Shown here: positions 21,368 through 48,087 of the stretch, in pieces
How the letters are laid out: each line of letters begins with the position of its first letter
How positions within the stretch are numbered: the first letter of the stretch is position 1
Source: Bacteroidales bacterium
GTDB lineage: Bacteria > Bacteroidota > Bacteroidia > Bacteroidales > UBA932
Length of the DNA: 58,700 nucleotides
Assembly: GCA_017549505.1 (NCBI GenBank)
Contig: JAFYUS010000037.1
Coordinates: 1-58,700 of the forward strand
Reading direction: 5' to 3'
Notes under the pieces: model-generated
The model's input: only the letters and a program-made list of their open reading frames with translations
What the model was told of the DNA's origin: nothing
The model's database searches: none
Made by a program: the position numbers and the translations under genes

Positions 21368-22831
21368 ATGCAACTATATATCCGTTATGTTGTAAACAGA
21401 CTCCTGATAGTTTGGGGCCTCATCTTGATTGCCGGATGTTCCCGTTGGGAGACCCCAGAGTCAGTATCTGATACGGAACCTCTGATTTTTCCTGACTATA
21501 AAGAAGTTACGATTCCGTATAATATCGCACCTCTTAATTTCATGATAGAAGGCGTCGGACGCATCCAGACGGTCATAAGTCTGGATGGAGCCGAACTGAT
21601 AAGAGTTTCCGGTAAGGAAGGAGTGATTGCAATTCCCTTGAAAAAGTGGAGTGCTATGATGGAATCTGCACAGGGCAAGGTGCTGGAATTCGAAGTGTCT
21701 GCATGGTCAGAAGAGAATCCTGAAGGTGTGAGATATGCTCCATTTAAAGTCAATGTGGCAGATGACGCCATAGATCCTTGGGTCGCATATCGCCTCATTG
21801 AGCCCGGTTACAAAAGCTGGAGACAACTGGGACTTTACCAGAGAAATCTGTCTACTTTCGAAGAAAGAGCCATCGTTACGAATACTACAGATATCGAGAC
21901 ATGTCTTAATTGCCATCATTTTCCGGCATATTCTGCCGGAAGCATGATGTTCCATGCCCGTGGCAGGAACGGTGGTACCATCCTTTATCACAATGGAGAA
22001 CTTTCCAAGATCAAGTTCAACGAGATCGGTCCTAAGAAGAACACTACATATCCGGCATGGCATCCAGAGGGCAGGATGATAGCCTTTTCTTCGAATAATA
22101 CCAGACAATCCTTTTATGTCCATGGAGAGAAGCCTATCGAGGTCTATGACTACACTTCCGATCTTCTACTTTATGATACGCAGACAGGAGAAGTGCTTGT
22201 AGATCCCCGTTTCATGACAGAGGAAACTCTGGAAACTTTCCCAGCATGGTCTCCAGACGGCAGGACTCTTTATTATGCTGCTTCTGACCGGAAGAATGTT
22301 CCTGCAGAGGTCGAACAGCTCCATTATCATATACTTTCTGTGCCATTTGATCCATCCAACCGTACATTTGGAGAGAAGATCGATACCCTTTACAATGCCC
22401 ATAAGAGCGGCGGAAGCGCTTCATATCCGAGGATCTCAGCTGACGGCAGGTATCTGCTTTATACATGGTCTGAGTATGGAACATTCCCTGTATGGCATCA
22501 GGAGGCCGATCTGAAGATGATAGATCTGACAACAGGGGAGCATGTGGATGTATCTGTGTGGAATGACCCTGATGAGGCTGACAGTTACCATTCATGGTCT
22601 TCCGACGGAAGATGGGTTGCCATCGGCAGCCGCCGTCTCGACGGAAGATATACCAGACTTTATTTCGCTTATCTTGACCGTGACGGAAAGGCGCACAAGC
22701 CTTTCCTCCTTCCGCAGGAAGATCCGCGCCATGACCTATGGCGCCTGAAGTCATATAATGTTCCTGAATTCGTCGACGCGGAGGTCGTACTTCCGGATTC
22801 GGTTGCAGAATTGTTTGAACCTGAGAAATAG
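21368..22831 (+). CDS. CxxCH-containing PD40/TolB-like beta-propeller lipoprotein, copy 1
   Basis: The 487-residue lipoprotein (lipobox IAGC, Cys24) has an N-terminal beta domain with FPDYKEVTIPYNIAPLNF (41-58), the first part of a propeller, then Cys179-Leu-Asn-Cys182-His183, a CxxCH site of the kind that carries covalent haem c. PD40-type propeller repeats follow (WHPEGRMIAFSS, WSPDGRTLYYA, ISADGRYLLYT, WSSDGRWVAIGS) and then a conserved KPFLLPQ segment. It resembles proteins annotated only as TolB-like in other Bacteroidetes. Haem attachment is inference; the motif could bind another metal. It is the first gene of its operon and is followed seven bases later by a DUF6057-like gene. Function unknown. 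Confidence 0.85.
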   Translation: MQLYIRYVVNRLLIVWGLILIAGCSRWETPESVSDTEPLIFPDYKEVTIPYNIAPLNFMIEGVGRIQTVISLDGAELIRVSGKEGVIAIPLKKWSAMMESAQGKVLEFEVSAWSEENPEGVRYAPFKVNVADDAIDPWVAYRLIEPGYKSWRQLGLYQRNLSTFEERAIVTNTTDIETCLNCHHFPAYSAGSMMFHARGRNGGTILYHNGELSKIKFNEIGPKKNTTYPAWHPEGRMIAFSSNNTRQSFYVHGEKPIEVYDYTSDLLLYDTQTGEVLVDPRFMTEETLETFPAWSPDGRTLYYAASDRKNVPAEVEQLHYHILSVPFDPSNRTFGEKIDTLYNAHKSGGSASYPRISADGRYLLYTWSEYGTFPVWHQEADLKMIDLTTGEHVDVSVWNDPDEADSYHSWSSDGRWVAIGSRRLDGRYTRLYFAYLDRDGKAHKPFLLPQEDPRHDLWRLKSYNVPEFVDAEVVLPDSVAELFEPEK

Positions 22832-22838
22832 ACAGCAT

Positions 22839-24272
22839 ATGAAGAAACCTTTTTTTACTCCAGCAAAGCTGCTGATTCTTGTGTCAGCTGTCCTTTTCCT
22901 CGTTTTCTGGTCAGTATGGTTTTTCTGTTACAGATATTATCTGATCTGGCTTGAGGGTTATTCATTCTTTTCGACTCTACCGGACTTCTTGCCACAATAT
23001 CTTGATGCTCAAGAAGGTATCCCAGGATATGTTGGAGCGTTCCTCCATCAGTTTTATGCAATGCCGGTTTTGGGAGCTGCAATCCAGTCTTTTCTTGCTG
23101 TGTGGCCTGTCGTATGTGCGGGAATCATAATTCTTCGTCTTTTCAAGAATCCGGAATGGTTGATGTGGATTTCATTGATTCCTCTTCTTTTCATCACTCA
23201 TCGTCAGTTCTGGGACCTGCATCTTTACTATACTGTGATAGCTGATATGCTCTTGACTGCAGCTATGATTCTTACAGTAGTTGTTACAGCTTTGGTGAAG
23301 TCGAAGTGTAAGCTTCCTCAGTGGAAGGGTAGCCTGTATGTCAATATGGCTCTGACATTGGTTGCGACAGTTATTTCAGTATACTTCCTGACCGGATTAC
23401 ATAAGAGCAACAGAATCCATGAAGAGAAGGCCCGCCTGGAATATCTGGGAGAGAACCATAGATGGAAGGATATCCTTGAAGAGGTTTCTCCAAAGGATGC
23501 AAAAGAGGATGAATTGAAACGTGCATATGCCTTGCTTGCGCTTTCAGAGTCCGGACTCCTGACAGATCATGCGTTCAGATATGGATTGGATGGTCAGGAT
23601 GACTTCGTATTCTATGAGAATATCGATCCGTTTTGTATCAACTATAACGCATTGTTCTATCAGTGTCTGGAGATGCGTAACGCAGTAATCCATCAGGCTT
23701 ATCAACTGGGTGTCCAGTCTGTGACAGGAGTCAGCTTTGCCAGTCTCCGCTATCTTGCTGATACATATATCGAACTTAAGGACTATACGATGGCAAGAAA
23801 ATATGTCGATATACTCAGTCATTCGTCTTGTCATGGAAAATGGGTAAAGGAAAGGCGTACCAGACTTGAGGCCATAAAACATGAAACTCCGGTATATGAG
23901 TACGATGAATACAAGGCGACCATATCGAACTTCAGCCACACCATATCATCGATGGTGGACCGTAACAGAGGTAACCGGAAGTATGCAGATCTGCTCCTGT
24001 GTTCACTTCTTGCAGACGAGGAGGGTGAACAGTTCAAGCAGATATTCAGATATGTCGCAGAAATACAATATCCGACGGGAGACACCATCCCTCGCTTGTA
24101 CGAAGAGGCTCTTATCCTTATTGCCATGGTTGAACCGGATGTGCTTGCAGGATATAAGATAAGCGAAGATACACGAAGGCGTTTTGCTGATTATATCACT
24201 ATGATGAACGCCGGCAAAGGCACTCAGGCTTTGAGAAAGCACGCAGATACATATTGGGCTTATTCGTATTAG
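22839..24272 (+). CDS. DUF6057-like polytopic membrane protein, copy 1
   Basis: I start this protein at the ATG at 22839 (MKKPFFTPAKLL), which puts a membrane helix at the N-terminus; the frame is open further upstream but that part overlaps the propeller gene. It has 477 residues. The N-terminal half (about 1-195) holds about five membrane helices and the family segment around GIPGYVGAFLHQFYAMPVLG. The C-terminal half (about 200-477) is soluble and helical, with TPR-like segments (YTMARKYVDILSHSSCHGKW) and the ending KHADTYWAYSY, shared with other copies in this window. No enzyme motif is recognised. It is always paired with a CxxCH propeller gene here. Function unknown. Confidence 0.8.
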   Translation: MKKPFFTPAKLLILVSAVLFLVFWSVWFFCYRYYLIWLEGYSFFSTLPDFLPQYLDAQEGIPGYVGAFLHQFYAMPVLGAAIQSFLAVWPVVCAGIIILRLFKNPEWLMWISLIPLLFITHRQFWDLHLYYTVIADMLLTAAMILTVVVTALVKSKCKLPQWKGSLYVNMALTLVATVISVYFLTGLHKSNRIHEEKARLEYLGENHRWKDILEEVSPKDAKEDELKRAYALLALSESGLLTDHAFRYGLDGQDDFVFYENIDPFCINYNALFYQCLEMRNAVIHQAYQLGVQSVTGVSFASLRYLADTYIELKDYTMARKYVDILSHSSCHGKWVKERRTRLEAIKHETPVYEYDEYKATISNFSHTISSMVDRNRGNRKYADLLLCSLLADEEGEQFKQIFRYVAEIQYPTGDTIPRLYEEALILIAMVEPDVLAGYKISEDTRRRFADYITMMNAGKGTQALRKHADTYWAYSY

Positions 24273-24275
24273 AAA

Positions 24276-25724
24276 ATGAAGAAAGGACTACATATATTAC
24301 TGTTTGCCGCTGTCTGTCTGTGTATGGCGGCAGGTGTCCATTTTGCACAGGAATTCCGTTTCTACAACATTGAGAGCAACGATCTGTTTCTATATGATTG
24401 GGCGGACATCTGGGGCAAGCTATGCAGGACCGGTGGTCTGGCGACTCTTCTTGCCTCTTTCTTTACACAGTTCATGAGGATTCCGTTTGTGGGCACAGTG
24501 ATCGTCAGTGGTATCTATATGCTGATCGCATACCTTCTTTACAGGATACTGGACCGCAGGGCGGATGCACCAGCTATGGCAGGATTCTGTCTTCTGCCGG
24601 CTGTCTTTCTGTTCCTCTGCATGGAGAATGACTATTACAGGTTCCAGGGCCATATGGCATTTCTGCTGATGGTGACGGCTTTGTTTGAGTATGTGTCTGT
24701 CAGCAAGGAGAAGCTGCGCTACATTTCCGGTATAGTGCTCATTCCTCTCCTTTATCATACGGCAGGCAGTGTTGCAGTGGCCTTTGTGGTCTCGGCAGTC
24801 GTATGGGAGATGACGGGATCGGGACTGAAAGGACTCAAGTCCATTGTATATCCGGCCGTGCTTGCAGCACTGGCTTATGTATATGTCAGATATTCCCTGG
24901 TAAGCAGCGTGGAACATGCACTGACTCCTTTCATGTATTATGACTGGCCTTCCACATATTTCTTCCCTGTTTATGCGTGGTCTATGGTTCCACTCATGAT
25001 TCTGGCGGCGTGGCTGCTGTCGAAGATTGATATGAAGCAGTCTTATAAGAAGACCGTAGCCATTGCAGGGCTGGTATTCTCATTCTTCCTGGCAGGTAAT
25101 TTCTACGGTCAGGTACATAGCAGAAGTTATTACCGTCTTATACAGGAGCAGTATTGGGCAGAAAACGGAGATTGGGACAGGATAATAAGGACTGCCGACC
25201 GCAGACAGCCTACGTTCCTGATAAGTTACCTCAATCTTGCGCTTGCGCAGAAAGGGCTTCTTGTACAGAATTACAAGTATTATAATCCTCAGGACCTGAC
25301 GTATATCATGTATCCTACGCCGAACCTCAAGACCGGCATGACTCTTCAGAGCACGGTATATTCTGCGTGGGACTACCATGCTGCTGCCCGTCAGGCAGCA
25401 TTCGATGCCAATGTGGTTACATCAGGCAACTGCAATCCACGCCAGCTCCAGGTGTTGGCAAGAACTAATGCTGCTCTCGGAGCCTATGAGGTTGCAGAGA
25501 AATATACAACAGTTCTGGAAAAGACTCTGTTCTATAGAGGTGTTGCAGAAGAGTTGAGACAGTCAATGAAAGAACCGGCAGTACTTCCGCTTACTGACCG
25601 TCATATACGTTACGATGGCCTCGAGGGAGACATGAGGGACATACTCGAAGTCGATGTGTCTCATCCGATATTGTCGCAGTTTCATCAGTTGTGCAAGATT
25701 TTGGAGAAAGGAGGTGAGAAATGA
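24276..25724 (+). CDS. DUF6057-like polytopic membrane protein, copy 2
   Basis: The 482-residue protein starts three bases after copy 1. It has about eight hydrophobic segments in residues 1-280 (for example GLHILLFAAVCLCMAAGVHF and IVYPAVLAALAYVYVRY), with the family segment TGGLATLLASFFTQFMRIPFVG near 50-72. A soluble helical C-terminal part follows and contains YEVAEKYTTVLEKTLFYRG. It lacks the DTYW-type ending seen in copies 1 and 3. Its stop codon overlaps the start of propeller copy 2 (ATGA, 25721-25724), so their translation is probably coupled. Frequent AGG and AGA codons contrast with the SusC genes and suggest modest expression. Function unknown. Confidence 0.8.
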   Translation: MKKGLHILLFAAVCLCMAAGVHFAQEFRFYNIESNDLFLYDWADIWGKLCRTGGLATLLASFFTQFMRIPFVGTVIVSGIYMLIAYLLYRILDRRADAPAMAGFCLLPAVFLFLCMENDYYRFQGHMAFLLMVTALFEYVSVSKEKLRYISGIVLIPLLYHTAGSVAVAFVVSAVVWEMTGSGLKGLKSIVYPAVLAALAYVYVRYSLVSSVEHALTPFMYYDWPSTYFFPVYAWSMVPLMILAAWLLSKIDMKQSYKKTVAIAGLVFSFFLAGNFYGQVHSRSYYRLIQEQYWAENGDWDRIIRTADRRQPTFLISYLNLALAQKGLLVQNYKYYNPQDLTYIMYPTPNLKTGMTLQSTVYSAWDYHAAARQAAFDANVVTSGNCNPRQLQVLARTNAALGAYEVAEKYTTVLEKTLFYRGVAEELRQSMKEPAVLPLTDRHIRYDGLEGDMRDILEVDVSHPILSQFHQLCKILEKGGEK

Positions 25725-27187
25725 GAAAGATGATGGTCATAGGGGCATTCCTGCTTATGCTCTGCTCCTGCTCTTCAGAGATCGATATAACCGGACATGC
25801 AAATCGTGAGCCGATGATATTTCCTGATTATAAGGGCGTTACTGTGCCTTGTAATATTGCCCCACTGGATTTCGAGGTCAGCTCAGACGAGGAGTGGACT
25901 TTGAAGATAGAGGCGGGAGACAAGGTACATTACCTCTCTGCAGACAACGGATTGTTTACTTTCGGCCGACGTTTCTGGAAGAAACTTCTCGAAGAAAACC
26001 GCGGATCTTCAATGACCTTTACCCTATATTTTAGGGGCGAAGACGGGTGGAATGCATGCAATCCTTTCGAGATCAACGTGGCTCAGGAAGAGATCGATCC
26101 ATATCTTGTATACCGTCTGATACCTCCGGGTTACAGTTTGTGGAACGAGATGGGCATCTATCAGAGAGACCTGACTTCATTCGATGAAAATGCGATTTAC
26201 AGAAATACTCAGGGAAGAGGCAACTGCGTGAACTGCCACTCGTTCCGTGACCGAGATCCGGAGGATATGCTTTTCCATATGAGATCGGAATTAGCGGGTA
26301 CATATATCTTCCGTGACGGAGCAAAGGAAAAACTTGATACAAAGACAGAAGAGACGATATCTCCACTTGTATATCCGTATTGGCATACTACAGGACGATA
26401 TGTGGCTTTCTCTGTGAACAAGACAAACCAGACCCTCCATGTGAAGGACCGCAATCAGATAGAGGTCTTCGATGAAGCCTCTGATGTAGTTGTGTATGAT
26501 GTCAAGAATCATGAAATTGTGACTGCTGATCTCCTTAGCGGCGATTCTTGGTTCGAGACCTTCCCTACATTCTCTCCTGACGGAAGAAGCCTTTATTTCT
26601 GCACATCTCCGGCTGCAGGCCCTATGCCGGATAGGTTCAAGGAAGCAAGATACAGCCTCTGCAGAGTGGATTTCAACCCTCAGGACTGTTCGTTCGGTAC
26701 AAAGGTGGATACCTTGTACAATGCTCTGACTGACGGAGGTAGCGTATCATTCCCAAGGATATCACCTGATGGAAAGATGCTCGTGTTCGCATTGAGCGGA
26801 TACGGCAATTTCTCCATATGGCACAAGGATTCCGACCTTTACTCGGTAAATCTTGAAACCCGGGATATCTCATGTATGACTCCTATTAACAGCGATGATG
26901 TCGAGAGCTACCATTCGTGGAGCTCCGACAGCCGGTGGCTGGCTTTCAGCAGCCGCCGCGATGACGGACTTTACACAAAACCGTATTTTGCATATGTTGA
27001 CAGTGACGGAAATGCTCATAAGCCTTTCCTCCTGCCTCAGAGAAATCCGAAGAAGTATTATGATTCCCAGATGTATGCCTACAACATACCTGAGCTTGTT
27101 TCCGGAAAGGTAGAGTTCAAGGGGAGTGAAATAGCGGATTTTGCCCGTAATGAGAAAGCAGTTAAATTGAAATATAACCTAAAGTAA
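25721..27187 (+). CDS. CxxCH-containing PD40/TolB-like beta-propeller lipoprotein, copy 2
   Basis: The 488-residue lipoprotein (lipobox around LCSC, Cys17) has IFPDYKGVTVPCNIAPLDF at 33-51, the CxxCH site Cys169-Val-Asn-Cys172-His173, and PD40 repeats (FSPDGRSLYFC, ISPDGKMLVFA, WSSDSRWLAFSSRR) with KPFLLPQ near the C-terminus. It overlaps the upstream DUF6057-like gene by four bases and the downstream Rid-like gene by one (TAATG), so the three are tightly coupled. Family function is unknown; haem c attachment is the first hypothesis. Confidence 0.85.
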   Translation: MRKMMVIGAFLLMLCSCSSEIDITGHANREPMIFPDYKGVTVPCNIAPLDFEVSSDEEWTLKIEAGDKVHYLSADNGLFTFGRRFWKKLLEENRGSSMTFTLYFRGEDGWNACNPFEINVAQEEIDPYLVYRLIPPGYSLWNEMGIYQRDLTSFDENAIYRNTQGRGNCVNCHSFRDRDPEDMLFHMRSELAGTYIFRDGAKEKLDTKTEETISPLVYPYWHTTGRYVAFSVNKTNQTLHVKDRNQIEVFDEASDVVVYDVKNHEIVTADLLSGDSWFETFPTFSPDGRSLYFCTSPAAGPMPDRFKEARYSLCRVDFNPQDCSFGTKVDTLYNALTDGGSVSFPRISPDGKMLVFALSGYGNFSIWHKDSDLYSVNLETRDISCMTPINSDDVESYHSWSSDSRWLAFSSRRDDGLYTKPYFAYVDSDGNAHKPFLLPQRNPKKYYDSQMYAYNIPELVSGKVEFKGSEIADFARNEKAVKLKYNLK

Positions 27188-28305
27188 TGACTTGTAAAAC
27201 TAAAGAGTATAAAGGAACATCGGTGCAGGTCGCTTCTTTCGTGAAGGAAGGTGGATGCTGTGAATACCATATGATAGTACATACGCTGGCTGCCGGCTCA
27301 TTCGAGCAGCAGCTTGTGGCTTTGCATGAAGCGTTTGATGATGCAATGGATGATATGTGCAGGGGAGCGCACCCTGTGTTCGTGAGATATTTCCTCAGTG
27401 ATATATCCAACCAGGCTGAAACATTGAAGAACATGTTGGATAAACGTCAGTCCTGTGCTGTATCAATCATAGGCCAGCCACCGATGGACGGAAGCAAAGT
27501 GGCGATGTGGGCTTATCTGGTTTCGGAAGCGGATGTGACTTCATGCGGAGAGGGATTGTGGAAAGCAGATTACCTCGGATATGAACATCTGTGGCTGGGA
27601 GATGCCTGCGGAAGGGGAGACTGTTCAGAGGAACAGACAATAAGACTGATGGATTCGTATCAGAAGGCTTTGGCTCCATACGGATGCAGCATTCAGGACC
27701 ATTGTCTGCGCACCTGGTTCTTCGTCCAGGATGTAGATGTGAATTATGCAGGAGTGGTGACAGGAAGGAAGCAGCAGTTCGATATGATGGGATTGACGGA
27801 AGATACCCATTATCTTGCCAGTACGGGAATCGCCGGAAGCAATGAGCTTCGTGATTCATGTGTCACTCTGGATACCTATGCTGCCGTCGGAATGTCGCAG
27901 GAATGTATCACATACCTGAAGGGGTCTACACACCTGAATCCGACTCATGAATACGGAGTCACTTTCGAGCGTGGTACGGCGGTGGATTATGATGACCGCA
28001 GGCATGTGCTGATTTCCGGAACCGCGAGTATCGACAACAAGGGACAGATTGTCCATCCCGGCGATGTGAAGGCGCAGACACTGCGCATGTGGGAGAATGT
28101 CTCTGTGCTTCTGGAGGAAGCAGGATGTACATATGCCGATGTGATGCATATGATCGTATATCTTCGTGACATAGCGGATTATGCGGATGTGAAGAAGATG
28201 TATGACGAGCGCTTTCCGGAACATCCGAAGGTCTTCGTCTGGGCACCTGTATGTCGCCCGGGCTGGTTGATCGAGATGGAATGTATCGCAGTAAGAAACA
28301 GATAA
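27187..28305 (+). CDS. Two-domain Rid/YjgF (chorismatase-like) family protein
   Basis: The 372-residue cytoplasmic protein has no signal peptide. The C-terminal half looks like a RidA/YjgF fold: VLISGTASIDNKGQIVHPGD, then QTLRMWENVSVLLEEAG, VMHMIVYLRD, and the ending VCRPGWLIEMECIAV. The N-terminal half appears to be a diverged second Rid-like domain, the arrangement found in chorismatases (FkbO/Hyg5/XanB2) and in uncharacterised Bacteroidetes relatives. Rid proteins deaminate reactive enamines or bind small metabolites; chorismatases hydrolyse chorismate. Which, if either, applies is not clear. It sits between a CxxCH propeller gene (one-base overlap) and a GH5 gene, 11 bases away, so it belongs to the xylan operon. 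Confidence 0.72.
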   Translation: MTCKTKEYKGTSVQVASFVKEGGCCEYHMIVHTLAAGSFEQQLVALHEAFDDAMDDMCRGAHPVFVRYFLSDISNQAETLKNMLDKRQSCAVSIIGQPPMDGSKVAMWAYLVSEADVTSCGEGLWKADYLGYEHLWLGDACGRGDCSEEQTIRLMDSYQKALAPYGCSIQDHCLRTWFFVQDVDVNYAGVVTGRKQQFDMMGLTEDTHYLASTGIAGSNELRDSCVTLDTYAAVGMSQECITYLKGSTHLNPTHEYGVTFERGTAVDYDDRRHVLISGTASIDNKGQIVHPGDVKAQTLRMWENVSVLLEEAGCTYADVMHMIVYLRDIADYADVKKMYDERFPEHPKVFVWAPVCRPGWLIEMECIAVRNR

Positions 28306-28316
28306 TGCTTGATATT

Positions 28317-30275: not shown

Positions 30276-30282
30276 TAACGCC

Positions 30283-32142: not shown

Positions 32143-32729
32143 ATTTTGAAAACCTGACAGAAAGAGCCGGCCGTGCTGTACAGCACTGGTGGCTCATGAT
32201 GCTTGCGGGCATCCTTTGCTTTGCCATGGGCATTGCAGTATTCGTATTCCCTCTGCAGAGTTATGTCACATTGAGCATACTTGCAGGAATCCTCATGCTC
32301 CTTGTCGGAGCTGCACAACTCATCATCGCTTCAACCAGCGGGAACTATCTCGCCATGCGCGGCTATATGCTGGTGGGTGGAGTGATCGATCTTATTCTGG
32401 GACTTCTCCTTTGTGTCTATCCGGGAGTGACCATGGCTCTTCTTCCTGTCATGCTCGGCATCTGGATGATGTACCACTCGTTCATGATGATAGCCTTCGG
32501 CGGTGACCTCGAGACATTCAGGGTCAAAGGCTCGGGCTGGACGATCCTTGGAGGCGTCCTGCTTCTGGCACTGTCATTTGTAGTACTTGTAAATCCTTTC
32601 AGCGCCGGAATAGCTGCTGTAATCGTGCTTTCCGGAGTAGGACTGATCGTATTCGGTATCCTTCTCTGCTGGGCGGCAAAGATATTCAAGGATATCGACA
32701 AGAGTTTTGAGAGAGAATATCCCCGCTAG
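32133..32729 (+). CDS. HdeD-like (DUF308) small membrane protein
   Basis: The 198-residue protein has about six membrane helices arranged as repeated hydrophobic hairpins (WWLMMLAGILCFAMGIAVF, ILAGILMLLVGAAQLII, and others), typical of the HdeD/DUF308 family. In Escherichia coli HdeD has been linked to acid resistance; the role in Bacteroidetes is unknown. The start ATG lies inside a 19-bp hairpin, so translation may be restrained. Its stop codon overlaps that of the convergent propeller gene. It may be a bystander in the xylan locus. Confidence 0.85.
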   Translation: MKRHFENLTERAGRAVQHWWLMMLAGILCFAMGIAVFVFPLQSYVTLSILAGILMLLVGAAQLIIASTSGNYLAMRGYMLVGGVIDLILGLLLCVYPGVTMALLPVMLGIWMMYHSFMMIAFGGDLETFRVKGSGWTILGGVLLLALSFVVLVNPFSAGIAAVIVLSGVGLIVFGILLCWAAKIFKDIDKSFEREYPR

Positions 32730-38587: not shown

Positions 38588-38666
38588 TTATTTATTATGG
38601 TATGTTGAATCAACCCCAACGGAAAACCATTTTCACCATATTATTTAATTACTAACAAAAACCATT

Positions 38667-41600
38667 ATGAAAAGTAAACTGTTTACTTCTCTCATGCTGA
38701 TGTTCGCATGCATTTCAATGATGGCTCAGGCACCTCGTCAGGTGACCGGTACTGTCAAGGATGCAGCAGGCGCTTCAGTAATTGCGGCTTCGGTCGTAGA
38801 GCAAGGAAACACCAGCAATGGTGTCATTACCGATCTGGATGGAAATTTCGCGATTAATGTTCCTGCTGGAGCACAGCTCGTGATTTCATCTATCGGCTAT
38901 TCAACACAGGTAGTTGAAGTAGGAAATCAGACCGTACTTTCAATTGTCATGGAAGAGGATAGCCAGCTTCTTGAGGAAACTGTTGTCGTAGGATACGGTA
39001 CTCAGAAGAAGAAACTCGTTACCGGATCTACTGTTCAGGTAAAGGGTGACGCAATCGCAAAACTCAACACTACCAGTGCGCTGGGAGCTTTGCAGTCTTC
39101 AACCCCTGGTATGCAGATTACAGCAGCATCAGGTCAGCCTGGTGAAGGTTTCAAGGTCTCTATCCGTGGTATGGGTACAATCGGTGACTACGAGCCTCTC
39201 TATGTAATCGACGGTGTAGCCGGCGGAAGCATCAACTCTCTCAACCCTTCTGATATCGAGAGCATCGACGTCCTTAAGGATGCTGCATCTTGCGCTATTT
39301 ACGGTGCACGTGGTGCGAATGGTGTTGTTCTCGTAACAACAAAGCAGGGTAAGGCAGGTAAGTATACTGTAACTTACGACGGATCTTATGGTGTTCAGAA
39401 CGTTCAGAGAATGCCTGAGTTCCTCAACGCAAAGCAGTATATGGATGTAATGAGCCTTGTTAACGTCAACCACGGTGGTTCACCTATCGACTGGGCTGGC
39501 ATCCTTGAGCCTGCTTTCTATCAGAGCATCATGGACGGCACATTCACAGGTACAAACTGGCTTGACGCTATCCGTAACGAAAATGCCCCTTATCAGAACC
39601 ATTCGGTAAACATCGTCGGTGGTAGCGACATGACCAAGTTCTCATTCGGTATCTCCAACACTGACCAGGAGGGTATCTTCGGTTATCCTGTACAGTCTCA
39701 GTACAACCGTACTACAGTACGTATCAACTCAGATCACGTACTTCTCCGCAAGGGTGATCTCGATGTCATCACTTTCGGTCAGAACATGACTTACACTTAC
39801 AGTACCAAGGGTGGTATCGCTGAAGGTGACTTCTACTACAACGATATTTCCAACATGCTTCGCGCTAACCCTCTTGTTCCTCTTTATGATGCTGAGGGTA
39901 ATTACTCTGACTATGATGATCTCGCACCTCTCGGTATCTGGAATCTTACTACAGATGCAAGAAACCCAGTCGTGATCATGGAAAGAAGTGCAAGAGGTAA
40001 CAACCAGAGCCATAGCCACGGCCTCAACCTCTCTGCAAATCTCCGTATCCAGCCTATCAAGGGTCTCGTATTCCGCAGCCAGTTCAACTACAAGTTCGAT
40101 GCTGGTACATACCGCAGCTATGAGAGAACTTACAAGGTTAACGCTAAGGACTACAAGAACACTGACAGCGTTTCACAGAGCGCATATGCAGGTTGGGACT
40201 GGTCTTGGGAGAACACTGTAAACTATAAGTTCAATGTTGCTGAAAAGAACCACTTCGACATTCTCGCAGGTTCTACTCTCGAGCACTCAGGTTTCGGTGA
40301 GGAAGTAAGCGCAGAGAACTCTGGCGGAAAGTGGCCGGATAATCCTCTTTACGCTTATGTTGACAATATGAGCAATACATCCCTTACACTCGGCAACCTC
40401 GGCGGTAGCACATGGGGTGATTGGGGATTGGCTTCATTCTTCGGACGTGTAAACTACGACTACGATGAGAAGTATCTGTTCTCTGCTATCCTCCGTGCCG
40501 ATGGTTCATCTAACTTTGCTCCTGGCAACCGTTGGGGTATCTTCCCTTCAGTAGCTGCCGGTTGGGTACTGTCAAGCGAGCCATTCATGCAGGATCTCCA
40601 GGGTAAGGTAGATTACTTGAAGCTCCGCGCATCTTGGGGTCAGAACGGTAACTGCTCAGTATCTAACTTCCAGTATCTTTCTACTGTATCAGTAGGTGCT
40701 GATGACGGAGGTTATGCTTTCGGTACAGGTCCTCTCGAAATGTGGCAGACAGGTGCATATGCAGATAAGCTTGCAAACAAGGATATCACTTGGGAGACTT
40801 CAGAGCAGATCGACCTCGGTTTGGACGCACGCTTCTTCAACAACAGACTCTCGATGACATTCGACTGGTATCAGAAGAATACCAAGGACTGGCTCGTCAA
40901 CGCTCCTGTAATGGGACACTTCGGTATGAACGCACCTTATATCAATGGTGGTGATGTCCGTAACTCAGGTGTCGAGCTCGCATTCAACTGGAACGACGCT
41001 ATCGGTAAGGACTTCTCTTACTCAGTGGGTATCAACGGTGCTTACAACAAGAACAGAGTAACACGTATTGCAAACGACGAGGGTATCATCCACGGTGAGG
41101 GTGAGCTCGTTGAGGGTATTGCTGAGTTCTATCGCGCTCAGGTAGGTTATCCTATCGGTTACTTCTGGGCTTATAAGACTGACGGTGTATTCCAGAACCA
41201 GGCAGAGGTTGACCAGTGGGTTGCTTCAGGCAAGCCGACTATGGGTAACCCAGCACAGCCAGGTGACCTCAAGTTCGTTGACAATGACGGCGACGGTGAC
41301 CTTGACGACGATGACAAGACTATGGTCGGTGATCCTAATCCTGACTTCATCCTCGGTCTTAACTTCAGTGTATACTACAAGGGCTTCGACCTTAATGTAA
41401 GCGGTTACGGTAACTTCGGCCAGCAGGTATTCCGTGCATACAGAAGATATGGTGACCAGCAGTATGACAACTATACTACTGAGGTATTTGACTACTGGCA
41501 TGGTGAAGGTACTTCAAACAGGTATCCACGTCTTGTACCTGGAGCTACTTACAACTACCTCACTAACTCTGACCTCTTCATCGAGAACGCAGACTTCTTC

Positions 41601-41834
41601 AGAATCCAGACTGTCAGCCTTGGATATGACTTCAACAAGCTCATCAAGAACTCTCCGTTCGGTCAGCTCCGTCTTTATGTACAGACTAACAATCCATTCG
41701 TAATCACCAAGTACAAAGGTATGGACCCTGAGGTTGGTTCATCAGCTGGTAACGAGGATTGGGCAAAGGGTATCGACACAGGTTACTACCCACAGGCTCG
41801 TACTATGATCATTGGTGTTAATCTCAAATTCTAA
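38667..41834 (+). CDS. Third SusC-like TonB-dependent transporter
   Basis: The 1055-residue outer-membrane transporter has a signal peptide ending near residue 21 (SMMAQ) and a full CarboxypepD_reg domain (about 24-100, QVTGTVKDAAGASVIAASVV). The motif EETVVVGYGTQKKK follows, then the plug (about 115-230, LYVIDGVAGG, IYGARGANGVVLVTTKQG) and a barrel ending ARTMIIGVNLKF. It starts a separate operon with its own SusD and a surface lipoprotein. Its length and domains match XusA more than XusC. The substrate is presumably another xylan-derived oligosaccharide, inferred from the surrounding enzymes. Confidence 0.93.
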   Translation: MKSKLFTSLMLMFACISMMAQAPRQVTGTVKDAAGASVIAASVVEQGNTSNGVITDLDGNFAINVPAGAQLVISSIGYSTQVVEVGNQTVLSIVMEEDSQLLEETVVVGYGTQKKKLVTGSTVQVKGDAIAKLNTTSALGALQSSTPGMQITAASGQPGEGFKVSIRGMGTIGDYEPLYVIDGVAGGSINSLNPSDIESIDVLKDAASCAIYGARGANGVVLVTTKQGKAGKYTVTYDGSYGVQNVQRMPEFLNAKQYMDVMSLVNVNHGGSPIDWAGILEPAFYQSIMDGTFTGTNWLDAIRNENAPYQNHSVNIVGGSDMTKFSFGISNTDQEGIFGYPVQSQYNRTTVRINSDHVLLRKGDLDVITFGQNMTYTYSTKGGIAEGDFYYNDISNMLRANPLVPLYDAEGNYSDYDDLAPLGIWNLTTDARNPVVIMERSARGNNQSHSHGLNLSANLRIQPIKGLVFRSQFNYKFDAGTYRSYERTYKVNAKDYKNTDSVSQSAYAGWDWSWENTVNYKFNVAEKNHFDILAGSTLEHSGFGEEVSAENSGGKWPDNPLYAYVDNMSNTSLTLGNLGGSTWGDWGLASFFGRVNYDYDEKYLFSAILRADGSSNFAPGNRWGIFPSVAAGWVLSSEPFMQDLQGKVDYLKLRASWGQNGNCSVSNFQYLSTVSVGADDGGYAFGTGPLEMWQTGAYADKLANKDITWETSEQIDLGLDARFFNNRLSMTFDWYQKNTKDWLVNAPVMGHFGMNAPYINGGDVRNSGVELAFNWNDAIGKDFSYSVGINGAYNKNRVTRIANDEGIIHGEGELVEGIAEFYRAQVGYPIGYFWAYKTDGVFQNQAEVDQWVASGKPTMGNPAQPGDLKFVDNDGDGDLDDDDKTMVGDPNPDFILGLNFSVYYKGFDLNVSGYGNFGQQVFRAYRRYGDQQYDNYTTEVFDYWHGEGTSNRYPRLVPGATYNYLTNSDLFIENADFFRIQTVSLGYDFNKLIKNSPFGQLRLYVQTNNPFVITKYKGMDPEVGSSAGNEDWAKGIDTGYYPQARTMIIGVNLKF

Positions 41835-41847
41835 TTAAGTGACTGAT

Positions 41848-43590
41848 ATGAAAAAGTTATTATATTTCGCAGCAGTCGCTGTCTGTTCATCGCTCGTTTC
41901 TTGCGAGAGCTTCCTTGACACAACTAACTATTGGTCAAAGACAAGCGACAACTTCCCTGCAAATGAGGCCGATGCAGATCAGATGCTTATCGGTATCTAT
42001 AACAACCTTAACGTAGCTATCGGTAACGATCCTGCCAACAACCATCATCTTTGGGCTATGGCAGCTTCTGATGATTGCCTTGGCGGTGGTGGATCCAATG
42101 ACCCTGATTTCCAGGCTCAGGATTTTTTCCTCAATTCAGGTGCAGATCTTTACAATTCATTCTACTGCGACCGTTACACCGGTATCGCCCGTGCTAACGT
42201 AGCGATCGAGTCGTTCCCTAACTGCGGTCTCCCTGAAGAGAAGCTCAACCAGTATCTTGGTGAGGCATACTTCCTCCGTGCGTTCTTCTACTATGAGCTC
42301 GCATCAATGTTCGGCAATATCCCTTGCCCTGTTACTTCTACCGCTGATGCAACTCAGCCGCAGGTTTCAGGTGAGGCTCTCTGGGGACAGATCATCCAGG
42401 ATGCTAACACAGCTGCTACTCTTCTTCCTGCAGTAAAGGCTGCCGGTGACGGACATGCAGACAGATATGCAGCTCAGGCTCTCCTCGGTCGTGCATACCT
42501 TTTCTACTCAGGTTTCTACAATGATGAGGAAGTGACTCTTCCTAACGGTGAGACTATCACTAAGGCTGATGTTGCAGCTGCTATCAAGGACTGTGTAGAC
42601 AATTCTGGTTACAGCCTCGTTGATGACTATCACAACCTCTGGCCTTACTCAAACGAAGTGACTGTCGAAGATCCGGAATCTCCTTGGAAGGGTAAAGGTT
42701 ATAAGTTTGTCGGTAATGGTACCAACCCTGAGGCTATGTTCATGATCAAGTTCAACACACAGCCAGACTGGGGAACAACCATCGGTTATGCCAACCAGTA
42801 TGCTCTTCAGATGGGTATCCGTGCTCAGGATAGTTTCGAAGATCATTTCCCTCTTGGTGAAGGTTGGGGTAAGTGTCCGGTTTCACCAGCTTTCGTAGAT
42901 GAGTGGAAAAAGGCTGAACCGGATGATCAGCGTCGTGACGCTTCAATCCTCAAGTCTGATGTATGGGACAACTATCACTTCGGTCGTGACAACTATGTAC
43001 AGGAGACCGGTTACTTCCAGACAAAGAACATGCCTATTTCAGGTCGTGATGCTTCTGGTAAGTTATGGCATTCTTATGTCAACGTGATCAATCCTAATCT
43101 CAGCTGGAACGAAGGTGAGAATGATGACTATCAGCTCTGTACTATCGACGACCTGGTTCTTATCCGTTTTGCAGAGGTTCTTCTTATGGACGCTGAGCTT
43201 AACAACAACCAGACAAGTTTCGATGCTGTACGTAGCCGTGCCGGTCTTGCATCTAAGCCTATCACTCCAGAGAATATCCGTGCTGAGCGTCGTTGGGAGC
43301 TCGCTTTCGAGGGTATACGTTTCAATGACCTCCGTCGTTATGGTGAGGATTACGCAGTTGCTGCACTTGACAAGCAGGAAGGTGTAAAGATCTGGAATAT
43401 CGGTGTCGAGGGTACAAACAACGCGTCAAAGTTCAACGGAGGCTATGGTGCCCGTTATAAAGAGACTAAGGGCTTCGTACCTCTTCCATCAGCTCAGATT
43501 GCTCTCTCTGCCGGTTCTGGCCCTGAGTATAAGTACGAACAGAACCCAGGATGGGGAACAACTTCAGCTGAATACGGTGGTTGGCAATAA
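41848..43590 (+). CDS. Third SusD/RagB-family lipoprotein
   Basis: I use the ATG at 41848 (MKKLLYFAAVAVCSSLVSC); a GTG nine bases upstream is in frame but less likely. The 580-residue surface lipoprotein (Cys19) has the SusD core (EAYFLRAFFYYELASMFG), the motif LVLIRFAEVLLMDAEL and the region AERRWELAFEGIRFNDLRRYG. It ends with NPGWGTTSAEYGGWQ. It begins 13 bases after the SusC gene and should cap that barrel. Confidence 0.92.
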   Translation: MKKLLYFAAVAVCSSLVSCESFLDTTNYWSKTSDNFPANEADADQMLIGIYNNLNVAIGNDPANNHHLWAMAASDDCLGGGGSNDPDFQAQDFFLNSGADLYNSFYCDRYTGIARANVAIESFPNCGLPEEKLNQYLGEAYFLRAFFYYELASMFGNIPCPVTSTADATQPQVSGEALWGQIIQDANTAATLLPAVKAAGDGHADRYAAQALLGRAYLFYSGFYNDEEVTLPNGETITKADVAAAIKDCVDNSGYSLVDDYHNLWPYSNEVTVEDPESPWKGKGYKFVGNGTNPEAMFMIKFNTQPDWGTTIGYANQYALQMGIRAQDSFEDHFPLGEGWGKCPVSPAFVDEWKKAEPDDQRRDASILKSDVWDNYHFGRDNYVQETGYFQTKNMPISGRDASGKLWHSYVNVINPNLSWNEGENDDYQLCTIDDLVLIRFAEVLLMDAELNNNQTSFDAVRSRAGLASKPITPENIRAERRWELAFEGIRFNDLRRYGEDYAVAALDKQEGVKIWNIGVEGTNNASKFNGGYGARYKETKGFVPLPSAQIALSAGSGPEYKYEQNPGWGTTSAEYGGWQ

Positions 43591-43603
43591 AATTTGAGAA
43601 CTT

Positions 43604-45076
43604 ATGAAAAAGATATTATTTTTTGGAATGATTTGCGCGATGGGACTGTCTTTCGCAGCTTGCGAACCACAGCTCATTGACGGACCGGATGCGTATGCAA
43701 CGGTTGATGAAGCTACACTTGCTGAGGCTATCACCTACACTCAGTATGCTGATAAGGAGCTTACCCAGCCAGATCCAGCTGGTAACTTCGTGAAGTACAA
43801 CAGTGCAGTCGGTGTTGTACAGGTATTCAGCATGACTGGAGCGTCTCCACTTGTTACAGGAGCTGGTGGAACATTCAAGCTTCCTGTAAAGCGTGGACAT
43901 GTTGGCAATATCAGTATGAAATTCCGCCTCCCAAATGCTGACGGTACTTTTACTACAGCTACAAAGGAATTCACTTGTACTCCTCCATCGGAGCTTACAC
44001 GTGAGCAGATTCTCCTTTCTGGTGATTATGGTCAGAAAGTTTGGATGTTTGAACAGACATTTGAACCATGGGGTAATGCCGGTTATGTTGAAGGTGAAGG
44101 CGCTATGTTTGATGTCATCAATGGATGGGACTCTTGGTGGTGGGGTATTGACCACGAAGAGTATACTTTCGAGAGCCAGATACCAGATATCGTTGAAGGA
44201 GGAGTCGCAATGGGTGATGAGCATAAATCAGCTTACATGGTATTTGACGAGGATGGACTCGTTCAGACATTTGCACCAGATGGTACATTAGTCCGTAAGG
44301 GTGGCTACAAGCTCGAGAACTATGATCCTGAGCGCTCAAGTGGTTGGGAACTCGCTAAGTTCACTACTTCTGAGCCAGCTATCCTCTTCCCTTGGGATGT
44401 AGATGGAGCAGGTGCTGTAAAAGAGTTTGACGTTATGTATCTCACCCCGCAGAACATGACTCTCGCATATGTACCAGCAGGTGCAGGTGACTGGGATACT
44501 ATCACTTACTGGCGTTTCGTTTCTGGTACACCTGATATGTATACTTTGGAAGGAAAGTGGACATATGGTGTTGAACTTAATTCTAGATACTCTTTCGTTT
44601 ACGGTGGTGCTCCTAAGGAAGGCGAAGGTTTCGACTATAATGAACTCACTGGAGATCTTCCAGGCTTCTCATGGGGTTATGCTCCAAGCAGACTTGCTGA
44701 AAAGTCAGAGCTCTATGCTGAAAGAGGTCAGGTATTCGGCGATGCAGCTGAAGGCGCTTACATGGAGTTCAAGGAGGATTGGGTTACTACATACTCTCCT
44801 GCAGGTGAAAAGGTACGTGAAGCTACTTGGAGCATTCAGATGAATGATCCTACAGTCAACGGCCGTCGTGGTGACAATGGTATCGAACTCGGTACTCTTA
44901 CTACAACAGGCCCAGGTCTCCTCTTCCCTTGGACTTACCAGACTCCAGGTGTCCCTGTTACCGAGTATAAGATCCTTTACTACGATTCTAATAATATCGT
45001 TCTTTACAAAGAAGGTCCAGAGGATCCTGAATTTGATAATATGACAATGTGGGTATTCTCACGTGTTAAGGAATAG
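43604..45076 (+). CDS. Surface lipoprotein with two tandem repeats (possible glycan-binding protein)
   Basis: The 490-residue lipoprotein has its lipobox at FAAC (Cys20). An N-terminal beta domain occupies about 25-125. Two related domains of about 170 residues follow (about 140-312 and 316-490). Each starts with a WxxG/WTYG-like strand, contains AYM(V/E)F-E/D-D...(Q/T)T(F/Y)(A/S)P-G, includes the motif GxxxLFPW near its end, and closes with I/M-T-x-W-V/R-F. No catalytic motif is seen and I do not recognise the family. Its position as third gene after SusC/D is typical of surface glycan-binding proteins (SusE/F or SGBP type). A terminator follows 24 bases later. Confidence 0.7.
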   Translation: MKKILFFGMICAMGLSFAACEPQLIDGPDAYATVDEATLAEAITYTQYADKELTQPDPAGNFVKYNSAVGVVQVFSMTGASPLVTGAGGTFKLPVKRGHVGNISMKFRLPNADGTFTTATKEFTCTPPSELTREQILLSGDYGQKVWMFEQTFEPWGNAGYVEGEGAMFDVINGWDSWWWGIDHEEYTFESQIPDIVEGGVAMGDEHKSAYMVFDEDGLVQTFAPDGTLVRKGGYKLENYDPERSSGWELAKFTTSEPAILFPWDVDGAGAVKEFDVMYLTPQNMTLAYVPAGAGDWDTITYWRFVSGTPDMYTLEGKWTYGVELNSRYSFVYGGAPKEGEGFDYNELTGDLPGFSWGYAPSRLAEKSELYAERGQVFGDAAEGAYMEFKEDWVTTYSPAGEKVREATWSIQMNDPTVNGRRGDNGIELGTLTTTGPGLLFPWTYQTPGVPVTEYKILYYDSNNIVLYKEGPEDPEFDNMTMWVFSRVKE

Positions 45077-45100
45077 TAATATTCATCTCCCTTAATATTA

Positions 45101-45132: not shown

Positions 45133-45141
45133 GTATATTTG
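45111..45141 (+). promoter_or_regulatory. Promoter of the DUF6057/propeller/GH43-GH31-GH95 operon
   Basis: TATATTTG at 45134-45141 is a good -7 box. The -33 TTTG at 45111-45114, 19 bases upstream, lies in the loop of the terminator hairpin of the preceding operon. Confidence 0.6.
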
Positions 45142-45194
45142 TTGGATTCTTCAGGCATCTATGTCAGCTTGAATAGTTTTAACATCTATAAATA

Positions 45195-46670
45195 ATGAAT
45201 AAGTCATTGCAATATATCTCTTCTGCAGTATTTGGTGTTGCTGTCTTCCTGTATTGGATCTTGCTTCATCCTTATGCATTAGGCCTGCAGGAGCAGAACC
45301 AGCTCTTCCTTTTTACAAGTGACTACTTTTTGGAAAGAATCGTCATTGCAGGAGGGCTTGCAGATTATATCTCAGAATTCATCACCCAGTTCAATTTTCT
45401 CCCTTACCTTGGAGAGATCCTTATGGCTGTCATCTTTGTAGTCTTTCAAAGATCGATTGCAAAGGCTGTTGGACGTGATGATCTGTACGCTTTCAGTTTT
45501 ATAGCCCCTGTGATGATGCTGATATATATGGGCGATATATATGTCCTGCTCAGCTATCTGGTGGCACTGATCATTTCTGTGCAACTCTGCATATGTTACT
45601 GTAAGTGGAAGGGTTTTGTCTGGACTGCAATTGCAACAGTGCTTGGCTATTGGCTTATAGGTCCTGCAGTTTTCGTATTCACGTTCTTCGTCTGCATCAA
45701 GGAAAAGAATATCAGATCTATGATCCTCATTGCTTTGGCCCTTCTAGCAATTGTTATTTCCAAGTTGACTTATCTCCACCAGTATCCTTGGAAGACAGTT
45801 GTGTTTGGTGTCAATTATTATAGAAAGGCTGTCACAGTGCCCGCCATGCAGCTTGTTATAGCTTGTTTCATCCTGATGATACCTGTCCTTGCTGATTATC
45901 TCCCTAGATTAAAGAAAGTTGCTGGTATTCTGATATATGTGGCTGTCTTTGTCGTTGGTGCATTGACCTTGCATCTTACTTATAAGAAGGATATTGTCGA
46001 AATTGTCGCATACGATCAGCTTGTCCGTCATGAAGATTGGGATGGCATCCTGAAGCGTGCTGAAAAGTATCAGCCGGATTCTGATCTGGCCAGCGTCAGC
46101 ATCAATCTCGCCTTGTTCATGAGCGGCAGAGGAGCTGACTTCCCTGAATTCAAGCAGTTCGGAACTACAGGACTTATACAACCTAGGGTAAGAGACTTCA
46201 TTTCCAACTCATCTTCTTGCGAGGTCTTCTGGAGATTAGGAATGATCAACGAGTCTCTCCGTTATGCCTTCGATACTCAGGAATCATTGGTCAACAATAG
46301 AAAGAGCGGCCGATGGACCTCCAGGATGGCGGAATGTCAGATTCTCAACGGCCGTCATGATGTCGCTCAGAAGTATCTTGATATCCTCGATCACAGCTTG
46401 TTCCACAGAAAGTGGGCTGATGAACATAGAAAATATTTAAGGAATGACGAAGAAATAGCCTCCGATAATGTATATGCTTATCTGAGGTCAGTGCGATACA
46501 AGGAAGATTTCCTTTTCTTCTATCCGGAAATGGACAAGATGCTTGCAAAGCTCTATTACGAGAACAATAATAATTATCTGGCAGCCTGGTACTATAAAGC
46601 GTGGACTGCTCTTAAACCGTTAAATGCAAATGATGAAGAAACATTTACTGGCAACTCTCACGCTAATTAG
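45195..46670 (+). CDS. DUF6057-like polytopic membrane protein, copy 4
   Basis: The 491-residue protein has about nine membrane helices in residues 1-270, with AGGLADYISEFITQFNFLPYLG near 53-74 matching the family segment. A soluble C-terminal part contains DVAQKYLDILDHSLFHRKW. Compared with copy 3 it lacks the last part with the DTYW ending: the frame runs on for about 47 bases into the start of the propeller gene and stops. It is the first gene of an operon that continues to the side-chain-cleaving glycosidases. Function unknown. Confidence 0.8.
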   Translation: MNKSLQYISSAVFGVAVFLYWILLHPYALGLQEQNQLFLFTSDYFLERIVIAGGLADYISEFITQFNFLPYLGEILMAVIFVVFQRSIAKAVGRDDLYAFSFIAPVMMLIYMGDIYVLLSYLVALIISVQLCICYCKWKGFVWTAIATVLGYWLIGPAVFVFTFFVCIKEKNIRSMILIALALLAIVISKLTYLHQYPWKTVVFGVNYYRKAVTVPAMQLVIACFILMIPVLADYLPRLKKVAGILIYVAVFVVGALTLHLTYKKDIVEIVAYDQLVRHEDWDGILKRAEKYQPDSDLASVSINLALFMSGRGADFPEFKQFGTTGLIQPRVRDFISNSSSCEVFWRLGMINESLRYAFDTQESLVNNRKSGRWTSRMAECQILNGRHDVAQKYLDILDHSLFHRKWADEHRKYLRNDEEIASDNVYAYLRSVRYKEDFLFFYPEMDKMLAKLYYENNNNYLAAWYYKAWTALKPLNANDEETFTGNSHAN

Positions 46671-48087
46671 TCTTGCACTGGTTTCCTGCACAAGGGAGAC
46701 TGTGCTGCGTGAAGAATTGCCCGATATTTTCCCAGATTACATAGGTGTGACGATCCCAGCAGAGATCGCTCCTTTGAACTTCGATCTTCCTGAGGAATAT
46801 TCTAAAGTTTATGCGAGGGTCACAGACCCTAAAGGAAATGTCATCACTGCTAAAGGAGACTATGCCGGCTTCAATGTGAAGAAATGGCATGAGATTACTG
46901 CTGCCAATCCAGGAGAGACTCTGACTGTTACGGTAGCCGGATATAAAGACGGCAGGTGGGAACAGTTCCGTCCCTTCTTCATCTATGTGAGCGAGTACTC
47001 TCTTGATGATTTCGGCGTGACCTACCGTAAGTTCGCTCCAGGATATGAAACCTACAGCAAGATCGGTATCTATCAGAGGAATATCCATAATTTCAATGAA
47101 GACCCGATAGTGGAAGGTACTCTCCTTCCAGGTCAATGTATGGGATGTCATACTGCAAACGCGACAAGTCCTGATGAGTTCCTGTTCCATCTTCGAGGTA
47201 AGCACGGTGCTACAATCGTCCAGAAGGACGGTCAAAGAAAATGGTTGGAAACCAAGACTGACCGAACTATAGGAAGGACTGCATATTCGTACTGGCATCC
47301 TTCCGGAAAATATATCACCCATTCCAACAATCTTGTCCATCAGCTTTTCTGGACAGGAAACAATGACAGATATATCGAAGTCTACGATGAAGCATCCGAT
47401 GTGATCGTGCATGATGTGGATAATGATCAGTTTATACTTTCACCAGAGCTGATGACAGAAGATTTCGAGACCTATCCTGCCTTTTCAAGCGACGGAAAGA
47501 CGCTTTTCTACTGTTCTGCACCAAAGGTTCAGGTCCCTGCTCAGGCACAAGATCTCCACTATAATCTCTGTGCAGTGGATTTTGATGAAGAGACCGGAAA
47601 GATCGGAACTCAGGTCGATACGCTGATCAATGCGTATGCGATGAAGAAAAGCGTTACAATGCCTCGTCCTTCTTATGATGGAAGATGGATTCTTTATTCA
47701 TTTGCAGATTTCGGATGTTTCCCTATAAACCATAAGGAATCAGATCTATGGCTTCTGGATCTGCAGGATGGCAGCACTCATCCGCTTGACAGGGCCAATT
47801 CTCCATATTGTGAAAGCTTCCACAACTGGAGTTCGAATTCCCGTTGGATACTTTTTTCGAGCCGTCGTGGCGATAATCTTTATTCAAGGATATATATCGC
47901 CGAGATCGATGATGATGGTAATGCCTCAAAACCTTTCCTTCTTCCTCAGAAAGATCCGTCTTTCTACCACAAGACCCTCTTTACTTTCAATGTTCCTGAT
48001 TTTACGAGAGGAAAGGTGAAATTCAAGACCTCTACAGCATATAAGGAAGCATTTTCAGATGAACGTACACATATAAAAGTAGAATAA
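46624..48087 (+). CDS. CxxCH-containing PD40/TolB-like beta-propeller lipoprotein, copy 5
   Basis: The 487-residue lipoprotein (lipobox LVSC, Cys22) could start at the ATGs at 46624, 46630 or 46633; all give a workable signal. It has IFPDYIGVTIPAEIAPLNF at 35-53, the CxxCH site Cys172-Met-Gly-Cys175-His176, propeller repeats (WHPSGKYITHS, FSSDGKTLFYCSA, WSSNSRWILFSSRR) and KPFLLPQ. It overlaps copy 4 of DUF6057 by up to 47 bases, and its stop codon shares one base with the next start (TAATG). Function unknown. Confidence 0.85.
   Translation: MQMMKKHLLATLTLISLALVSCTRETVLREELPDIFPDYIGVTIPAEIAPLNFDLPEEYSKVYARVTDPKGNVITAKGDYAGFNVKKWHEITAANPGETLTVTVAGYKDGRWEQFRPFFIYVSEYSLDDFGVTYRKFAPGYETYSKIGIYQRNIHNFNEDPIVEGTLLPGQCMGCHTANATSPDEFLFHLRGKHGATIVQKDGQRKWLETKTDRTIGRTAYSYWHPSGKYITHSNNLVHQLFWTGNNDRYIEVYDEASDVIVHDVDNDQFILSPELMTEDFETYPAFSSDGKTLFYCSAPKVQVPAQAQDLHYNLCAVDFDEETGKIGTQVDTLINAYAMKKSVTMPRPSYDGRWILYSFADFGCFPINHKESDLWLLDLQDGSTHPLDRANSPYCESFHNWSSNSRWILFSSRRGDNLYSRIYIAEIDDDGNASKPFLLPQKDPSFYHKTLFTFNVPDFTRGKVKFKTSTAYKEAFSDERTHIKVE

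Follow-up and report, generated by a model that had tools for sequence, protein, structure and literature searches.

A stretch of 58,700 nt (contig JAFYUS010000037.1, assembly GCA_017549505.1; host genome label G000), referred to in full as the window, encodes five propeller lipoproteins and five DUF6057 partners, all inside a GH10/SusCD xylan locus (open reading frames (ORFs) and Pfam). As far as sequence allows, propeller and DUF6057 protein probably form a paired c-haem protein that is periplasmic and membrane-tethered, and covalent haem at the propeller CxxCH is a supported prediction. Possibly, the module is a redox system based on haem that has not been described before, and not a xylan-specific device. 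An earlier note made from the window letters had described five such lipoproteins with a single CxxCH and exactly five partners; all were recovered by ORF calling, PD40 and PF19529. The chorismatase-like gene and the DUF4369 gene treated below are absent from that note. The assembly of the host, 2.1 Mb in size and 78% complete, shows five propellers, every one in the window. The module genes are as follows.

21368..22831, plus strand: propeller lipoprotein copy 1 (PD40, alignment; CLNCH at 21902-21916)
22839..24272, plus strand: DUF6057 partner of copy 1 (PF19529 1.6e-50, scanned from the earlier start 22758)
24276..25724, plus strand: DUF6057 partner of copy 2 (PF19529 2e-76)
25721..27187, plus strand: propeller lipoprotein copy 2 (PD40, alignment; CVNCH at 26225-26239)
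27187..28305, plus strand: chorismatase-like protein (Rid/FkbO-Hyg5 family fold), proposed third part (PF01042)
32726..34168, minus strand: propeller lipoprotein copy 3 (PD40, alignment; CINCH at 33674-33688)
34137..35912, minus strand: full-length DUF6057 partner of copy 3 (PF19529 3.3e-156; 7 hydrophobic segments)
35984..37027, plus strand: partner of copy 4, the C-terminal half of DUF6057 behind a lipoprotein-type signal (PF19529 positions 243-569)
37005..38474 (36975 ATG also open), plus strand: propeller lipoprotein copy 4 (PD40, alignment; CMNCH at 37521-37535)
45195..46670, plus strand: DUF6057 partner of copy 5 (PF19529 1.6e-103)
46624..48087, plus strand: propeller lipoprotein copy 5 (PD40, alignment; CMGCH at 47137-47151)

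PD40 was matched by all five window propellers (Pfam, E 6e-9 to 4.5e-17). Identity to copy 1 was 35-38%, and the xPDYxxVT(I/V)P start, the C..CH site and many invariant residues were common to 5/5. Each copy has a single CxxCH (CxNCH in four, CMGCH in copy 5) between the N-terminal domain and the PD40 propeller. In copies 1-5, the site begins with Cys at residue 179, 169, 161, 173 (counted from 37005) and 172, respectively. Lipobox-type starts of the window copies were assigned by eye; a permissive lipobox pattern was found within the first 60 residues of 133/144 relatives from other loci.

For relatives of the propeller, at least 573 encoding stretches were found in named genome contigs, and the best 80 loci, whose titles name Bacteroidetes, were kept. 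Outside the window, 135 loci (other genomes and plasmid-collection records included) yielded 150 unique propeller ORFs. CxxCH was present in 149 of them, always as C[MVIL]NCH; the one ORF lacking it is a fragment (173 aa) located at the edge of a region. After shuffling of the 144 relatives from other loci, CxxCH arose in 0.4% of proteins. A remote propeller group of similar layout, with CxNCH in 9/9, was reached via weak matches in order and class searches and via a phylum search. In six of its nine members, the C-terminal tail measures roughly 180 residues or more, and TPR matches were obtained in both tailed proteins scanned. With the remote group, the phylum search found 2/198 genomes at E 1e-40; with the canonical group, the class search found 3/149 genomes at 1e-15 (G000, G095 and G325, the last with a remote member). 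Conservation of CxxCH in homologues, a point raised in the earlier note, is borne out in both groups. For residue conservation, 30 canonical propellers (five from the window) and the 9 remote ones were aligned. The only Cys or His positions above 85% in both groups were the CxxCH Cys and His, plus H401 (copy-4 numbering), an invariant His toward the end of the propeller. We infer that H401 belongs to the haem site, possibly as distal ligand.

Genes for haem attachment are present in the hosts. In G000, CcsA- and ResB-type genes are adjacent and lie beside a CCP/MauG cytochrome with three CxxCH sites. Attachment of haem to CXXCH by CcsBA is given as established in an excerpt of PMC10663686. PF01578 (cytochrome c assembly) was detected in 48/49 module carriers, drawn from two overlapping samples, vs 143/177 non-carriers from the first sample (two-sided p=0.0015). 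Within families f37, f53, f67 and f83, the genomes without PF01578 and ResB (G037, G053, G067 and G083, respectively) are also without the module, and sister genomes with PF01578 and ResB carry it (G695 in f37; G602 and G699 in f53; G158 and G612 in f67; G562 and G665 in f83). Of the extracytoplasmic haem protein proposed earlier, the conserved CxxCH and the host maturation genes, with G598 as the exception among carriers, were thus found, and the haem itself remains predicted.

Several results weigh against a haem protein. A curated cytochrome c domain was matched above cut-off in 0/30 propeller members; single weak matches of cytochrome type were to magnetochrome (E 0.072) and to an NrfB-like family (E 0.15). 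The PF01578 association is one-sided, because 143/177 non-carriers also have PF01578 and G136 (f37) has assembly genes without the module, and the association tests ignore phylogeny, although the 21 carriers of the first sample cover 19 family labels. In G598 (L158; 240 contigs, 99% complete) a CLNCH propeller was found and no PF01578 or ResB was detected, which could be explained by sequence missing from the 240-contig assembly. A non-haem metal or a disulfide at CxxCH is possible. On such an account, the CxxCH would be a non-haem metal site or a structural disulfide and the propeller a TolB-like platform for binding or assembly without redox function. This would fit the PDB sequence matches of the propeller, which are weak, are to TolB, DPP6-type and other propeller-type or uncharacterised proteins and include none labelled cytochrome. 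It would also fit the 20/136 immediate same-strand neighbours that are TonB-receptor plug (11) or SusD (9) proteins. The CxxCH His is, however, as invariant as both Cys, and the association with cytochrome c assembly and the occurrence of the chorismatase-like family near di-haem enzymes and CcsBA elsewhere also speak against a platform; we regard this account as unlikely, if still worth keeping in view.

The pairing of the two proteins was assessed by co-occurrence, distance and co-variation. Propeller and DUF6057 were found in the identical 21/198 Bacteroidales genomes. For the propeller, carriers were defined by E below 1e-90 (G134 via a partial match), a threshold chosen after the table had been seen; the carrier set is unchanged for any threshold from 1e-30 to 1e-90. 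A match at E 0.001 was present in 69 of the 198 genomes, the best one below the carriers having 2.6e-29. The DUF6057 search gave 26 genomes at 0.001 and 21 over the cut-off. A DUF6057 gene lies within 1.5 kb of 144/150 propellers; among the other six, one is the 173-aa fragment and one is at a contig end. In L029:213-3698, a propeller directly follows a SusD-like gene, with no DUF6057 model match nearby. For 129 adjacent propeller/DUF6057 pairs, the distance matrices correlated with r = 0.797. Partner swaps, confined to within the 17 genomes or loci holding several pairs, gave a mean of 0.636 and a maximum of 0.739, and 0/2000 reached the observed r. Since swaps never reach it, each propeller tends to go with its own DUF6057, as expected of touching proteins. 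The genome survey suggested earlier showed co-occurrence of propeller and DUF6057; a consistent link to glycan loci was not seen. A DUF6057-propeller fusion in L055 (989-aa ORF) was rejected as an artefact of an upstream start.

PF19529 was matched by 5/5 window partners with 173 to 522 bits vs a curated cut-off of 29.8. The protein at 35984 aligns only to profile positions 243-569, the C-terminal half, and has a lipobox-like signal by eye; no membrane segment was called in it by the simple hydropathy script that gave the 7 segments of the copy-3 partner. This half is probably exported, which suggests that the C-terminal half faces the periplasm in other DUF6057 proteins too. Among 133 DUF6057 ORFs beside propellers in other loci, the 22 shortest were inspected in detail: a lipobox-like start was found in 0/22, and the three without a membrane segment are fragments of 82-201 residues. 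In the first loop region, a Glu (35/37) and a Gln (36/37) are near-invariant. As to a possible TPR nature of the C-terminal half, TPR families gave isolated weak matches only across 38 members, and the comparison with the C-terminal tails of the remote propellers yielded no profile match (probability 2.9%). The PDB sequence search with DUF6057 gave nothing convincing. In open-licence PMC literature, no article naming DUF6057 and none on the propeller/DUF6057 module was found; PD40 is mentioned in an excerpt of PMC4010731 for an OmpA-type protein.

The several membrane segments and the near-invariant Glu and Gln in the first loop region would also suit a glycosyltransferase of GT-C type whose periplasmic domain is helical; the propeller would then be its binding or scaffold subunit, and the CxxCH would serve the enzyme. 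A profile of 25 PMT_2-type proteins matched DUF6057 with a probability of 47%; the controls, CcsBA and an ammonium transporter, gave 7% and 0.3%, respectively. The aligned stretch, however, lies outside the conserved loop, no GT-C family appeared among the 25 listed of 26 families matched by 38 DUF6057 members, and the partner of copy 4 is without the membrane half. A glycosyltransferase is considered very improbable.

The protein at 27187, encoded directly after copy 2, has a Rid/chorismatase-type fold by sequence (PF01042) and is predicted to be cytoplasmic, with no obvious signal peptide by eye. Its family profile matched PDB entries 5ag3, which we take to be Hyg5, at E 1.2e-44 and 4bps (FKBO) at 1.3e-35. 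The residue aligned with Hyg5 Glu-334 is E363 in the window protein and is Glu in 51/51 family members; an excerpt of PMC7170507 describes Glu-334 as the acid essential for chorismate conversion. The family lies beside a propeller or DUF6057 gene in 11/80 named loci, at most 400 bp from 15/150 propellers, and adjacent in 4/8 remote loci. It was present in 21/21 first-sample carriers (one gene in 19/21, two or three in the others) vs 11/177 non-carriers (p=1e-20). Of these 11, G065 and G147 have a remote propeller, and G018 and G053 are partial matches.

The chorismatase-like gene also occurs near haem-related genes at loci of other kinds (Pfam run with one representative per family). A CxxCH protein or CcsBA is encoded within three genes in 14/30 loci, and is not a propeller in 12. 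Such genes, propellers included, made up 25/173 within three genes vs 6/170 further out (p = 0.0005); the propeller-adjacent cases arise partly by construction, owing to the origin of the query, and the di-haem clusters do not. In one cluster (L223, L224, L231, L242 and L247), a DHOR di-haem oxidoreductase, a porin and a small CxxCH protein without Pfam match are found, with imelysin in four of the five loci and CcsBA directly beside the chorismatase-like gene in L223 and L224. In another (L226, L227, L228, L244 and L251), a MauG-like di-CxxCH protein is encoded near it. L227:4499-8494 and L228:10273-14271 encode di-CxxCH proteins of 1331-1332 aa, with CcsBA and the chorismatase-like gene close by; the one from L227, which was scanned, has a hydrazine-synthase-alpha middle domain and FGE-sulfatase and NPCBM domains. 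L225 holds DHOR-type and CcsBA genes, and L245 a CxxCH protein to which no family was assigned.

Three points count against giving this protein a place in the system. Against TIGR04444, the window protein scored 39.7 bits with a cut-off of 325, and it is called chorismatase-like only, because it is far below this curated chorismatase cut-off. The family query (A6) behind the 21/21 count was built from propeller-adjacent genes and covered 21 of the 49 carriers. In 16/30 chorismatase-like loci, no CxxCH protein or CcsBA is encoded within three genes. A hitherto undescribed multi-part redox system of Bacteroidales, in which the chorismatase-like enzyme would turn chorismate into an aromatic acid or a similar compound that would be mediator, ligand or substrate for exported c-haem proteins at several loci, is proposed with considerable reserve. 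Its c-haem suite would comprise CxNCH propellers on DUF6057, plus DHOR and MauG-like di-haem proteins elsewhere, and genetically independent propeller/DUF6057 pairs would plug in at different uptake and metabolic loci.

For the paired c-haem protein favoured here, the following sequence of steps is considered most likely. The propeller lipoprotein would be exported, and haem would be attached at its CxxCH by the host System II (CcsB/CcsA), with H401 perhaps completing the site. The propeller would dock on its own DUF6057, an inner-membrane protein with its C-terminal half toward the periplasm. The pair would then perform redox chemistry or haem-based sensing beside whichever locus carries it, different copies being placed at different loci. 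The chorismatase-like enzyme would be part of the same system and may supply a chorismate-derived aromatic as helper for the haem proteins.

Like mono-haem c-type cytochromes of System II, the propeller is predicted to be exported and has one CxxCH, with CcsB/CcsA in the host genome; unlike them, it has no cytochrome c Pfam match above cut-off, a PD40 propeller and a DUF6057 partner. With cytochrome cd1/MauG-type propeller proteins it shares a propeller and a predicted c-haem site, and a CCP/MauG-type protein, part of which resembles cytochrome d1, adjoins the chorismatase-like family in other loci; there is one CxxCH here vs two there, and the repeats are PD40, not D1-type. PD40 repeats and weak PDB sequence matches are common to TolB and DPP IV-type propellers, for which we know of no CxxCH site and no DUF6057 partner. 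The chorismatase-like protein resembles FkbO/Hyg5/XanB2 chorismatases in its profile matches to 5ag3 and 4bps and in the Hyg5 Glu-334 equivalent; it differs from them in its TIGR04444 score and in being linked to predicted c-type haem proteins. According to an excerpt of PMC7170507, chorismatase products go into polyketides and pigments. The DHOR/imelysin/porin and MauG-like Bacteroidales loci have the chorismatase-like gene in common with the module, some of them together with CcsBA; in the ten DHOR/MauG-like stretches examined, neither DUF6057 nor a PD40-CxNCH propeller was among the labelled genes.

Bacteroidales are dominant gut fermenters, and to our knowledge few c-type cytochromes have been well studied in them. 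If the proposal is correct, a large family with an invariant haem motif, a co-evolving membrane partner and a link, at the level of genomes, to a relative of chorismate enzymes would add an envelope redox layer, and first functions would be obtained for DUF6057 and chorismatase-like proteins. Given the chorismatase-like genes near CcsBA and di-haem genes, the hypotheses on haem and on a chorismate product are directly testable in species that can be cultured, for example Parabacteroides distasonis.

The xylan locus is only one of many settings in which the module occurs. As described in the earlier note, xylan-related genes surround the module in the window: two GH10, GH5, GH43, GH31, three SusC-type and three SusD-type genes were found. 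The neighbouring genes are as follows.

18969..21230, plus strand: GH10 enzyme, context (PF00331)
28251..32082, plus strand: GH5 and GH10 enzymes, context (PF00150, PF00331)
38667..45076, plus strand: SusC, SusD and a third gene (43604, without Pfam match) between copies 4 and 5 (Plug, SusD families)
48087..48584, plus strand: DUF4369 protein, optional neighbour (PF14289)

For the neighbour surveys, the first 25 Pfam families were listed. Among 136 immediate same-strand neighbours, Plug receptors (11), SusD (9) and DUF4369 (11) were found, the rest of those listed being mixed. SusC/SusD and glycan enzymes are not consistent companions (Plug 11/136, SusD 9/136), and the settings include metabolic genes. 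Annotated copies in Parabacteroides distasonis have various settings: a locus of glycosyl hydrolase and AGE-epimerase genes that follows arginine-biosynthesis genes, positions next to SusCD and next to an outer-membrane receptor, and a place flanked by meaB and pfkA.

A xylan-specific role, in which a haem propeller would oxidise xylan-linked aromatics or sugars or assemble surface enzymes, is suggested by the window position between GH10 and SusCD genes, by GH10 beside the module in L006 and two further neighbours (3/74), and by the close relatives of copies 1 and 2 in L006 and L007. Elsewhere, however, the immediate neighbours vary and include pfkA, meaB and genes of arginine biosynthesis as well as other hydrolases and receptors, and copies 3-5 have their nearest relatives in other loci. 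Such a role therefore seems hardly probable, and the tie to xylan considered in the earlier note was not supported, the same pair lying beside these metabolic genes, beside other hydrolases and beside outer-membrane receptors of several kinds.

The window copies are 34-43% identical among themselves. Copy 1 has 68% identity to its counterpart in L006 and 63% to that in L007 (copies 1 and 2 overall 61-68%), and the nearest relatives of the copy-1 DUF6057 are the partners of the copy-1 propeller relatives. Because the nearest relatives of copies 3, 4 and 5 lie in other loci and those of copies 1 and 2 in L006 and L007, the five are not recent local duplicates; recent local duplication as their source was rejected on this low mutual identity and the nearer counterparts elsewhere. 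In the sample, the three other genomes of this genus and the three others of this family all lack the module, suggesting that this lineage gained it horizontally.

Of the relatives surveyed, L101-L104 come from records NZ_OY725752.1, NZ_OY725768.1 and NZ_OY725790.1, filed as Parabacteroides distasonis plasmids. These records carry the core genes argC, pfkA, cmk and peptide chain release factor 3 and therefore look like chromosomal pieces. In the window, a hybrid two-component regulator with Reg_prop, HATPase, receiver and AraC-type domains is encoded at 1300-5436 (minus strand) and is perhaps the regulator of the xylan locus. Between it and the xylan locus, a serine recombinase of the resolvase family (5727-7349, minus strand) is a possible trace of mobility, which would fit the finding that the other sampled genomes of the genus lack the module.

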